Origin: Candidatus Wolfebacteria bacterium GW2011_GWE2_44_13
GTDB taxonomy: Bacteria; Patescibacteriota; Minisyncoccia; UBA6257; UBA9933
NCBI GenBank assembly: GCA_001000675.1
Contig: LCHW01000004.1
Span: 1 to 44,715 of the forward strand
DNA: 44,715 nucleotides
Direction of reading: 5' to 3'
Shown here: positions 21,757 to 26,172 of the stretch, in pieces
Numbering within the stretch: the stretch's first letter is position 1
Layout of the letters: each line of letters opens with the position of its first letter
The notes under the pieces: generated by a model
Databases searched by the model: none
What the model was told of the DNA's origin: nothing
The model's input: only the letters and a program-made list of their open reading frames with translations
Made by a program: the position numbers and the translations under genes

Positions 21757-22485
21757 TTAGTTTCTTCGCTGTGGGCGATTCTCGGAATAAGATTGGCGCT
21801 TTACTGGCTCCTTTTCTTTTTCCTTAAACACCTCGCCCTTATTGATCCACACCTTTATACCAATGGTTCCATAGGTTGTATAGGCGGTTGCTTCTGCGTA
21901 ATCGATATCTGCGCGAATTGTCTGCAACGGAATAGTTCCTTTTGCAAGCTGTTCAGTTCGTGCGATTTCTGCACCGTTCAAACGACCAGAAACGCGAATC
22001 TTTGCTCCTTTTACTTCTCTGGACTGCATCAAGCTTTCCAGTGTCTTTTTCATAATGCGACGAAACGGCATACGTCGTTCCAAATCGCGAGCAATGTTGT
22101 ATCCGGTTACTGCGGAAGATACGTCAAATCGTTTCAGCTCTTCGATGTTCATGCTGATTCCAGTAAGCTTCTTGCTTCCGTTTTTCTTTCGGATGGCTGA
22201 AACTTTCTTATCGAGCAATTTCGAGAGATCTTCGATCCCCTTTCCTCCACGGCCGATGATCAAACCTGGCTTTGCGGCTTTGATGTGGATGCGAATCGAA
22301 TCGCCAAAGCGTTCAATTGCAACATAATCAATTCCGGCAGCACCGATTTTATCGGCGATGATCTTTCGGAGTGTGACGTCTTCTTCCAAGTATTCCTTGA
22401 AATTGACTCTCTTCGGGAACCAGCGAGCTGTCCAGTCTTTGATCACGCCTACCCTAAATGCAGTTGGTTTTATTTTGTGACCCAT
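21757..22485 (-). CDS. rpsC: Ribosomal protein uS3
   Basis: [39 protein letters not shown]. Confidence 0.97.
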
Positions 22486-22545: not shown

Positions 22546-23094
22546 TTAGATAGATTTTCTCTGGAAAAGCTTGCGCTTTGTTCCTTCTTGAGTAGCTTTG
22601 GTTGTCTTCTCGGCCTTTTCAGTCTTTGTCTTTGGCTTCTCTTCAACCTTTTCGGTCTTTTCAGCCTTCTTTACAGCAACTTTCTTAACCTTTTCTGCCT
22701 TTACCTTAGTTGCCTTTTCCGACTGCTTTACCATAGTAAAGCGCGGTGCCTTTGTCTTATCAGATTCTTCGAGAACAATCGTGATATGGCTAGTCTTCTT
22801 TTGGATTGGCGTAGCGCGTCCTTGTGCTCTTGGTAACCAGCGCTTCAGCATCGGTCCACCATCAACTCGGATCTCCTTGACGAAAAGCTTTGATGCATCC
22901 ATTTTTGCGTTGTTGACCGCATTTGCGATCGCTGACTGCAACAATTTCAACACCGGCTCACTTGCTCGCTTTGCATTGATAGACAACTGTGCTTGCGCAT
23001 CATTGACTGACAATCCTTTGATAACCGTAGCCATCAAACGAGTCTTTCTCGGAGCCATTCGAAGATTATTTAATTTTGCTGTTTGCTGTTTCAT
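22546..23094 (-). CDS. rplV: Ribosomal protein uL22 with long Lys/Glu/Thr-rich C-terminal tail
   Basis: LNNLRMAPRKTRLMATVIKGL...VDGGPMLKRWLPRAQGRATPIQKKTSHITIVL then a low-complexity tail. Confidence 0.95.
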   Translation of the reverse strand: MKQQTAKLNNLRMAPRKTRLMATVIKGLSVNDAQAQLSINAKRASEPVLKLLQSAIANAVNNAKMDASKLFVKEIRVDGGPMLKRWLPRAQGRATPIQKKTSHITIVLEESDKTKAPRFTMVKQSEKATKVKAEKVKKVAVKKAEKTEKVEEKPKTKTEKAEKTTKATQEGTKRKLFQRKSI

Positions 23095-23116: not shown

Positions 23117-23413
23117 TTATTTCTTCTGTGCTACTTTGCGATCTGCTTCCTTCGCCAACTTACCACCGTGTCTGATAAACTTCTTTGTTGGTGAGAATTC
23201 TCCCAATCGATGACCGACCATCTCTTCTGTCACTCGAACTGGAATAAAATCTTTTCCATTATGTACGCCAAACGTATGTCCGATCATTTCCGGAGCGATT
23301 TCGGAACTACGTGCCCACGTCTTGGTTACTGTTTTATCGCCAAGCGTTAAAACAGACACTTTTTTCATGAGTTTCTCGTCTACGTATGGACCTTTTTTTG
23401 CTGATCGTGACAT
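23117..23413 (-). CDS. rpsS: Ribosomal protein uS19
   Basis: [19 protein letters not shown]...[28 protein letters not shown]. Confidence 0.96.
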
Positions 23414-23481
23414 ATTGTGTATTGGATAACTCGTGAGCATTGCTGCTCGTGAGCTCGTAAGTAAATTAGTTTATTCGTTCC

Positions 23482-24324
23482 TTATTTAGTCTTATTTCGA
23501 ACTGTCGGCCTTCGCTTAACAATAAGTGAAGTTGACGCTTTCTTCTTATTTCGTGTCTTGCGTCCACCAGTGACCTTACCCCATGCAGTCTTCGGTCGCT
23601 TGGTTCCGCGTGGCTGACTTCCTTCTCCTCCACCGTATGGGTGATCGCACGGGTTCATAGCAGAGCCACGAACTGTCGGTCGGATTCCCAAGTGTCGAGA
23701 GCGTCCTGCCTTTCCAAGGTTAACCAAGTTATGTTCATGATTGGAACACTGTCCCATCGTTGCATATCCTTCGGTCAATACCTTTCGTACTTCTCCTGAT
23801 GGAAGCTTAAGGCTTGTATATTTTCCTTCGTGTGCCAATACCTGTGCATAGGAACCTGCAGATTTTACCATCTGTCCTCCTTTGCCTGGTTGTAATTCTA
23901 TATTGTAGACCATGTAGCTGGTCGGGATGTTCTTCAACTTTGAGCGGTTGCCGTTTTTTACAACTGCATTTTCCGCTGTGATGATTTCATCGCCAACTTT
24001 CATGTCCTTGCCAGCCAAAATATACCGTCTTTCGCCGTCATTGTAAAGCGCACGTGCGATAAACGCAGAGCGATACGGATCATATTCAATAGCTTCGATG
24101 CGTGCCGGAATATCAAACTTATTGTGTTTGAAATCCACCATACGGTAGAGCTGCTTTACACCTCCTCCCTGATGGCGGGTCGTGATACGGCCCTGGTTAT
24201 TGCGACCACCCCGCTTTGCGATTCGAATAAGCGCGCTTTTCATCGGCTCAATCTTAGTCAAAACGCTATAGTCAACCACAGTCATGTGGCGTCGTGATGG
24301 AGTTGTTGGTGAATATTTTTTCAT
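23482..24324 (-). CDS. rplB: Ribosomal protein uL2
   Basis: KRGGRNNQGRITTRHQGGGVKQLYR...VRGSAMNPCDHPYGGGEG. Confidence 0.97.
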   Translation of the reverse strand: MKKYSPTTPSRRHMTVVDYSVLTKIEPMKSALIRIAKRGGRNNQGRITTRHQGGGVKQLYRMVDFKHNKFDIPARIEAIEYDPYRSAFIARALYNDGERRYILAGKDMKVGDEIITAENAVVKNGNRSKLKNIPTSYMVYNIELQPGKGGQMVKSAGSYAQVLAHEGKYTSLKLPSGEVRKVLTEGYATMGQCSNHEHNLVNLGKAGRSRHLGIRPTVRGSAMNPCDHPYGGGEGSQPRGTKRPKTAWGKVTGGRKTRNKKKASTSLIVKRRPTVRNKTK

Positions 24325-24362: not shown

Positions 24363-24728
24363 TTAGGAAGGCATGATGTCGAGCTTCTGTCCTTTCTTGA
24401 GCGTCACAATGGCTTTCTTGGTGGTCTTTTTCTTACCATCAACGCCCTTGTACTTTTGTCGTTCTCCCCGGATAGTAACCGTGTTTACGGAAATCGGGTC
24501 GACGTTGTAAATCTTTTGGATCGCCTTTTTGATTTCAGCCTTGTTCGTATGTTTATCAACAACGAACACGTACTGACCGGCGGCACTCATATGATACGCC
24601 TTCTCGGTGATCAACGGGTGTTTTATTATAAACTCGTTGGCCGGATTTCGCAAAGCGCCCTTCTTCACCGCAGTTTTCTTTTCAGCAACTACGCCGTCTT
24701 CAGTTTTTATTTTCTTTGCAATAGCCAT
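24363..24728 (-). CDS. rplW: Ribosomal protein uL23
   Basis: IIKHPLITEKAYHMSAAGQYVFVVDKHTNKAEIKKAIQKIYNV. Confidence 0.96.
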   Translation of the reverse strand: MAIAKKIKTEDGVVAEKKTAVKKGALRNPANEFIIKHPLITEKAYHMSAAGQYVFVVDKHTNKAEIKKAIQKIYNVDPISVNTVTIRGERQKYKGVDGKKKTTKKAIVTLKKGQKLDIMPS

Positions 24729-25395: not shown

Positions 25396-25995
25396 TTAGC
25401 TTCGTACTTCGATAATAGTTCCTCTCATTCCTGGAACTGCACCGTGAATCATCAAGAGGTTATTTTCTTTGTCGATTGCAGCAACCTTAAGGTTCTTAAT
25501 CGAGAAGCGCTCCAGACCCATGTGCCCAGCCATCTTTCTTCCTGGTACAACGCGCTGCGTTGCGGTAGATCCGATAGATCCTGGTGCACGATGTCGGTTC
25601 TTCTGACCGTGTGTCTTAGGTCCTCCATGAAATCCATGTCGCTTTACAACGCCCTGGAAACCACGTCCCTTTGACAAACCACTAATCTTTACCACATCAC
25701 CTTCGGTGAATTGTGCGACATCGATGATATCTCCAACCTTCAACTCGGAACCTTCAACCCGGAATTCTTTTAGGGTTTTGAAATTTCCTAGATCCTTCAG
25801 ATGTCCTGCAAGAGGCTTGTTCGCTTTCTTGTCAGATTTATCGAATCCAACTTGAACCGCTTCATAACCATCCTTTTCAGTGCCACGCAATTGCGTCACT
25901 GTTATTGGACCAGCTTGCAGAATCGTTACCGGGATCTGCTTATCGCCTTGCCAAATCTGAGTCATTTTTACTTTTTTGCCGAGTATGAATTTCAT
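25396..25995 (-). CDS. rplC: Ribosomal protein uL3
   Basis: MKFILGKKVKMTQIW...GRGFQGVVKRHGFHGGPKTHGQKNRHRAPGSIG. Confidence 0.97.
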   Translation of the reverse strand: MKFILGKKVKMTQIWQGDKQIPVTILQAGPITVTQLRGTEKDGYEAVQVGFDKSDKKANKPLAGHLKDLGNFKTLKEFRVEGSELKVGDIIDVAQFTEGDVVKISGLSKGRGFQGVVKRHGFHGGPKTHGQKNRHRAPGSIGSTATQRVVPGRKMAGHMGLERFSIKNLKVAAIDKENNLLMIHGAVPGMRGTIIEVRS

Positions 25996-26012
25996 AGTAT
26001 GTTTATCTATCG

Positions 26013-26043
26013 AAAAAAACGAGCGGATTTAGTAATCCACCCG
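26013..26043 (-). terminator. Terminator-like hairpin in the rplC leader (candidate attenuator)
   Basis: CGGGTGGATT-ACTA-AATCCGCTCG-TTTTTTT on minus strand, 10 bp stem with two G-U pairs. Confidence 0.65.
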
Positions 26044-26059
26044 TCCCTTTGGTGTTTTG

Positions 26060-26132
26060 ACTAAATCTTTCGTAAAAGATTATTTGCTACGCTATTTTCT
26101 TTTTCAATCGATACCAACATTCCTGTTGATAT
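26060..26132 (-). promoter_or_regulatory. Structured 5' leader of the ribosomal operon (two tetraloop hairpins)
   Basis: ATATCAACA-GGAA-TGTTGGTAT and AATCTTT-TACG-AAAGATT. Confidence 0.6.
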
Positions 26133-26143
26133 TTGACTTAGTG

Positions 26144-26172
26144 AGAATAACAGATAGCTCGAGCCATGTCAA
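26144..26172 (-). promoter_or_regulatory. Ribosomal operon promoter
   Basis: TTGACA-N17-TATTCT. Confidence 0.8.

Follow-up and report, generated by a model that had tools for sequence, protein, structure and literature searches.

The window analysed here, a stretch of 44,715 nucleotides, belongs to a 0.92 Mb genome (G000, contig C4) whose L3 protein is 94% identical to that of Candidatus Wolfebacteria RIFOXYD12 (L031), and this closest named relative places the genome in the Paceibacteria. Its minus strand carries a ribosomal-protein operon of which rplC (L3; 25396..25995, Pfam PF00297, ATG at 25995) is the first gene, followed by rplD (L4; 24732..25361), rplW (24363-24728), rplB (23482-24324), rpsS (23117-23440), rplV (22546-23094) and rpsC (21757-22485), all assigned by Pfam, in the order L3-L4-L23-L2-S19-L22-S3. 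Ahead of rplC on the same strand lies a promoter consisting of TTGACA (26172-26167), a 17-nt spacer and TATTCT (26149-26144) with an extended -10 TG, from whose position transcription is predicted to start at about 26137. The leader that follows contains, near its 5′ end, hairpin H1 (ATATCAACA-GGAA-TGTTGGTAT, 26132-26111), a 9-bp stem with a GGAA loop, then hairpin 2 (AATCTTT-TACG-AAAGATT, 26081-26064), and finally a terminator stem with two G-U pairs (CGGGTGGATT-ACTA-AATCCGCTCG, 26043-26020), directly after which comes a T7 tract (26019-26013) 17 nt upstream of rplC. Hairpin 2 overlaps an element that we call U (GATTTAGT, 26067-26060), the putative 5′ strand of an antiterminator, which is perfectly complementary to ACTAAATC (26033-26026), the terminator loop and upper 3′ arm that would serve as its 3′ strand. 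The promoter, both hairpins, the terminator with its T7 tract and the complementarity of U to the loop were all described in the original prediction, made from the letters of this stretch, and all are found in the minus-strand sequence as it had them. Absent from that reading was a short leader ORF (ATG...TAG, 26061..26120, minus strand, 19 codons, MLVSIEKENSVANNLLRKI), whose stop codon lies inside U; such an ORF, with its stop at the antiterminator strand or shortly ahead of it, points to coupling with ribosomes and not solely to binding of an r-protein (L4, for instance).

An intrinsic terminator between a promoter and the first gene is the layout of an attenuator. The gene cluster upstream has a separate terminator of its own (26303-26277), so the leader hairpin is not the terminator of that cluster, and because the promoter lies between the two, the hairpin can only be an attenuator or a structure of the rplC mRNA. 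Directly past the upstream terminator there is an inverted repeat (TCATTCCCGCGTAGGCGGGAATGA, 26265-26240, minus strand), which is likely a genus-specific dispersed repeat, since similar fragments occur upstream of the leader in L002-L004. Taken by itself, the window sequence offers modest evidence for a switch: the 143-nt leader has a folding z of -3.86 against dinucleotide shuffles (0 of 200 shuffles as good), and the window has a single occurrence of the pattern ATTTAG-N(9-39)-CTAAAT, 0.18 being expected. It is the relatives that make the evidence strong.

Within the family (Candidatus Wolfebacteria), rplC was detected in 21 of 22 genomes, the window genome included, and none was found in G016. 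Upstream of rplC, all 21 rplC-bearing genomes have U together with a terminator that presents, in its apical loop, the complement of U, and the same combination precedes rplC in one neighbouring family. U is typically [A/G]GATTTAG[C/T], that is, GATTTAGC-like, and in each of the 17 family leaders analysed a TTGACA-type or near-match promoter with 16-18 nt spacing stands at the same place, with the extended -10 TG in 15 of them. The terminator stem is wholly different in sequence between genera and retains its pairing. Three unrelated versions exist, ACAGCC-GGCTAAATCT-GGCTGT, ATGAGGG-GCTAAAT-CCCTCAT and, in the genus of the window, CGGGTGG-ATTACTAAAT-CCGCTCG, in which the stem pairs change together and the loop stays matched to U. 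When U and loop were exchanged between members, own pairs were more stable than swapped ones (-11.9 vs -10.1 kcal/mol; 2 of 20,000 permutations), and when these loci were scanned for terminators, loop complementarity reached p<0.05 in 10 of the roughly 15 family leaders covered vs 14 of 406 other hairpins. Column counts in the alignable subset (alignment A3) comprise mostly wobble changes and are weak by themselves. The T run is only four long in several family terminators. Many family leaders also have a 5′ hairpin, of unrelated sequence, and the 5′ part as a whole, unrelated in sequence between genera, has a mean folding z of only -1.3 (17 leaders).

Two parts of the original prediction did not survive this comparison. 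Hairpin 2 occurs only in the genus members L001-L004, and we rejected it as a general anti-antiterminator for that reason. The 5′-end segment ACTAAGTC (26142-26135), once put forward as a competitor in the transcript, is for the most part promoter discriminator and not RNA, given a -10 ending at 26144 and a start expected at about 26137, and it is not kept in L002-L004. Any other upstream pairing that would sequester U in general was likewise dropped, being inconsistent among full-length folds.

A covariance model (R1) was built from 14 family sequences. Its best genome-wide match is the rplC leader in 20 of the 22 family genomes and lies elsewhere in G014 and G016. Over 392 genomes of the class it returned ten matches outside the family, five of them directly upstream of rplC; adjacency to rplC was established by tblastn for four, and for L196, whose contig ends within rplC, the gene start was confirmed separately. 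All five fall in one further order (45 genomes; families f33, f64, f75 and f80), in which rplC was found with a consensus-like L3 query, used for locating the gene only, and in which U and the hairpin could be read in 36 leaders. Here, U and loop have changed as pairs, to GATTTAGC/GCTAAATC in L216, GGTTTAGC/GCTAAACC in L217, GTTTTAGC/GCTAAAAC in L240, GTTTTAGC/GCTAGAAC in L230, L238 and L242, GGCTTTAGC/GCTGGAGCC in L248, and CTTTAGCG/CGCTAAAG in L211. Own pairs have a mean of -9.84 vs -6.80 kcal/mol for swapped ones (0 of 20,000 permutations). A compensatory-cell test on 21 leaders of one register (20 from the second order plus L015), with U and hairpin joined by an artificial spacer, found 96.4% of cells paired and 15 two-sided changes, where shuffling gave a mean of 5.8 (0 of 500), and every slid control collapses. 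Judged by comparative sequence evidence, of which this U:loop covariation in the second order is the decisive part, the antiterminator/terminator pair ahead of rplC is real. The switch first proposed for the leader of this one operon is thereby upheld by conservation and covariation in its relatives, the check on their rplC leaders having come out positive both in the family swap test and in the 36 second-order leaders. Pattern and model searches for a second copy of the attenuator elsewhere in the genomes yielded, among the matches examined, only chance matches, ordinary terminators or coding sequence.

How the two pairings might succeed one another was examined by folding partial and complete transcripts. 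In transcripts cut after the loop and before the 3′ arm, the minimum-energy structure contains the U:loop helix in 21 of 21 segments, with a pairing probability that averages 0.82 over 18 leaders and drops to 0.07 on shuffling of the upstream part. Full leaders prefer the terminator in 13 of 17 cases, those of L012, L015, L019 and L024 being mainly in the U:loop form. With partial transcripts giving U:loop and finished ones mostly the terminator, the leader looks like a co-transcriptional switch, in which both the order of events and the mutual exclusion of the two states are predicted by the folding model.

Both groups have leader ORFs of 5-19 codons that begin not far from the 5′ end and have their stop at U or slightly upstream of it, so that the layout of a ribosome-dependent attenuator, a short leader ORF with its stop near the antiterminator strand, is present. 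In the family, an ATG lies at most 28 nt from the start region in 14 of 15 genus representatives, and an ORF of 6-19 codons ends -9 to +24 nt from U in 13 of the 15; ATG is the top-scoring of 61 triplets. L016 and L018 have a very short leader lacking the ORF, and L024 has a 2-codon ORF only. Among 1000 shuffles the two counts average 6.0 and 2.5 and never exceed 12 and 7. The ranges, here and in the second order, were chosen after inspection of the data and the species are related. By promoter spacing, the family AUGs stand at about +1 to +22 and have no Shine-Dalgarno sequence, which predicts leaderless or short-UTR starts. 70S ribosomes are able to start on AUGs of this kind (PMC9031893).

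The second-order ORFs have 5-13 codons and many encode MVL(N/I/T)..K(T/P), with peptides of the ML.F type also present. Their start codon is ATG, GTG or TTG, the first base varying and the T and G after it being invariant. The distance from stop to U is 8-23 nt in 30 of 30 leaders (sd 3.6); with the start-to-U stretch shuffled, a mean of 7.8 and a maximum of 15 of the 30 fall in that range (sd 35.5). Start codons and ranges were chosen with the data in view, but this contrast is large. Leaders without MVL (L209, L211, L214, L244, L247 and L248) still have their stop 8-14 nt before U. As proof of coding, the peptide MVL..KT is weakened by the fact that the same bases form a hairpin (GGTTTTA..TAAAACC); because the conservation of MVL and KT may in this way partly reflect hairpin H1, the case rests on start-codon exchange and spacing, which argue that the leader ORF is probably translated. 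The leader peptides contain neither control codons nor a known arrest motif nor a single-amino-acid run, and amino-acid-specific attenuation was rejected for lack of codon runs.

Sequence comparison establishes the promoter, both U and the terminator along with their covariation, and the leader ORF, which stops at a fixed distance from U. We favour the reading, at a probability of about 0.6, that the leader is a ribosome-gated, cis-acting transcription attenuator of the L3-L4-L23-L2-S19-L22-S3 operon, ribosome coupling being preferred because of the narrow stop-to-U distance in every second-order leader measured. As RNA polymerase leaves the leader, U would pair with the loop of the emerging terminator. 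If this helix holds, the terminator stem could not close properly and polymerase would read through into rplC; if U is unavailable, the terminator would form and transcription would probably stop in vivo at the T7 tract. Access to U would be gated by ribosomes on the leader ORF. In the window species, the stop lies inside U, so a ribosome at the stop would cover it. In second-order leaders, the distance from the stop to the beginning of U is mostly 8-16 nt, about where the leading edge of a terminating ribosome would be, and since U begins ahead of a ribosome at the stop codon, simple masking is not obvious there. The sign of control that we prefer is negative feedback, as it fits the logic of a ribosomal-protein operon: ribosomes engaged on the leader would disturb U, favour the terminator and thus reduce the synthesis of ribosomal proteins, and when initiating ribosomes are scarce, U would be free and the operon transcribed. 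An r-protein ligand may take part alongside. A further extension, which we hold only tentatively, is that this is a ribosome-sensing attenuator of at least two Paceibacteria orders, in which the ORF near the 5′ end reports the availability of initiating ribosomes and whether the L3 operon is antiterminated depends on the ribosome terminating beside U, a dedicated r-protein repressor being absent. If ribosome coupling is true, feedback through the availability of ribosomes, and not through free r-protein, would set r-protein synthesis.

The strongest competitor, although we consider it doubtful, is a classical autogenous attenuator, in which a free r-protein encoded by the operon (L4 if the analogy with E. 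coli holds, otherwise L3, L23, L2 or L22) binds a site such as H1 or the U:loop/terminator region and causes termination, the ORF being secondary. Such a device would be in keeping with known r-leaders, which respond to an operon-encoded r-protein (PMC7247131), with the way in which L4, together with NusA, acts on a terminator in the leader of the E. coli S10 operon (PMC10931766), and with the antiterminator and terminator structures that B. subtilis rplJL uses with L10(L12)4 (PMC4538822). The recurrence of H1 could supply a binding site, but the weakly structured 5′ part, unrelated between genera, holds no conserved structured binding domain that we could see, and the fixed distance from ORF stop to U is left unexplained. 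Binding by rRNA mimicry fares no better. In the family genomes, a conserved stretch of 23S domain I (AAGGCUAAAUAC, for example at about 2020 in L144) contains GGCUAAAU, the sequence of the loop, and is complementary to U, but the likeness is lost in L009, L011 and L014, where U and loop change together, so the mimicry is not maintained. As U and loop drift jointly and the 23S sequence does not, its complementarity to U is probably chance, and we rejected 23S mimicry or pairing as the main explanation on the same ground.

Less probable still is a pseudoknotted terminator, in which U:loop pairing with the stem closed would be the functional form, stabilising termination, causing a pause or making a protein site. 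A pairing of 6-7 bp between a loop and a linear strand is sterically possible in a kissing-type geometry, and in all three stem types the complementarity is centred on the apical loop. The pairing is, however, often 8-10 bp long and includes the loop-closing pair, so that the two helices would both require columns 17 and 24 and no free nucleotides are left to bridge the helix, and the partial-transcript folds give U:loop before the 3′ arm exists. Finally, an unregulated partial terminator, which only fixes the amount of read-through and is tuned by a U and an ORF that sense nothing, would suit the fact that no signal or ligand is readable from the sequence and that the leader peptides contain no run of one amino acid, but U:loop covariation, ORF and spacing kept over two orders exceed what a constant terminator needs, and we regard it as very improbable.

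Trp-type attenuation involves a short leader ORF whose stop lies near the 5′ strand of an antiterminator, with antiterminator and terminator mutually exclusive. By analogy it appears to be one of the three nearest mechanisms to the ribosome-gated attenuator proposed here, together with the B. subtilis rplJL attenuator and the E. coli S10/L4 leader. The present leader shares all of these features and a distance of roughly 70 nt from stop to terminator. It differs in having no single-amino-acid control codons, in controlling ribosomal proteins, in an antiterminator that captures the terminator loop where the trp type captures the terminator 5′ arm, and in an ORF that lacks a Shine-Dalgarno sequence and begins close to the 5′ terminus of the RNA.

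The rplJL leader of B. subtilis likewise controls an r-protein operon through a mutually exclusive antiterminator and intrinsic terminator and has a leader peptide (PMC4538822). In that system, an anti-antiterminator containing a kink-turn is stabilised by L10(L12)4, and the peptide, encoded downstream of the terminator, counteracts Rho (PMC4538822). In contrast, the present leader has no known kink-turn domain or ligand, and its ORF is upstream of the antiterminator strand; nor is there a conserved anti-antiterminator with an r-protein site of the rplJL type, hairpin 2 and the 5′-end pairing being unconserved outside the genus or species. The E. coli S10 leader resembles it in placing a terminator ahead of an operon bearing rplC and rplD, but has another structure, with no U:loop antiterminator and no leader ORF described there (PMC10931766). 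The E. coli operon starts with S10 (rpsJ), the present one with rplC, and a homologous S10-type leader structure was not found in the window or the 20 related loci, where the architecture differs and Rfam matches are lacking. Rfam 15 gives nothing above the gathering threshold in any of these loci, and against this database the statement in the original prediction that this architecture was not a recognised one still stands. The r-leader catalogue of Eckert and Weinberg (2020), whose leaders, like the present one, are conserved covarying RNAs found consistently upstream of r-protein genes, tabulates 20 new leaders, among them no Patescibacteria/CPR lineage and a sole rplC-first leader that is archaeal (Archaeoglobi L4) (PMC7247131). 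No r-protein leader has been described for Patescibacteria in the literature searched, subscription papers lying outside its coverage. With the layout present in two Paceibacteria orders, whose members are ultra-small, and no match in the RNA-family database, ribosome production in these reduced bacteria appears to be under a form of control not yet described, exerted by an attenuator that in both orders is made up of a leader ORF and an antiterminator directed at the terminator loop and that fronts one of the largest ribosomal-protein operons of the tiny-genome Patescibacteria.

Several leaders carry additional features. In L006 and L014, the linker between U and the terminator contains an extra GC-rich hairpin (CTCCGC..GTGGAG and CTCCGC..GCGGAG, respectively), implying that the U:loop helix tolerates an inserted stem. 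L015 and L019 have a second hairpin beside the rplC start, after the attenuator (CAATGTTGTAGTAAAATTTAC..GTAAATTTTAACAACATTGG and CAATGTGGTAG..CCACATTGG), which shows a paired G-C/A-T change and is possibly another leader element. In L015, a MITE-like insert of about 290 bp, bounded by CCCAGCACATATTTTGCG and CGCAAAATATGTGCTGGG, lies between attenuator and rplC, and the attenuator is not lost although the insert separates it from the gene. Related-looking leaders were also seen in Portnoybacteria (L057, L062 and L081) and Bin_050 (L048), the relationship being suggestive only. Family f13 (L029, L045/L151 and L074/L157) has, upstream of rplC, a loop CTTCATT or CTTTGTT complementary to upstream sequence, a suggestive hint of the same loop-capture layout in different sequence. 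In Kaiserbacteria and relatives (L047, L054, L083 and L095), rplC is preceded by a different conserved leader, GACC(A/T/G)ATGG(A/C)A plus a hairpin, which looks like another, unrelated type of r-leader.
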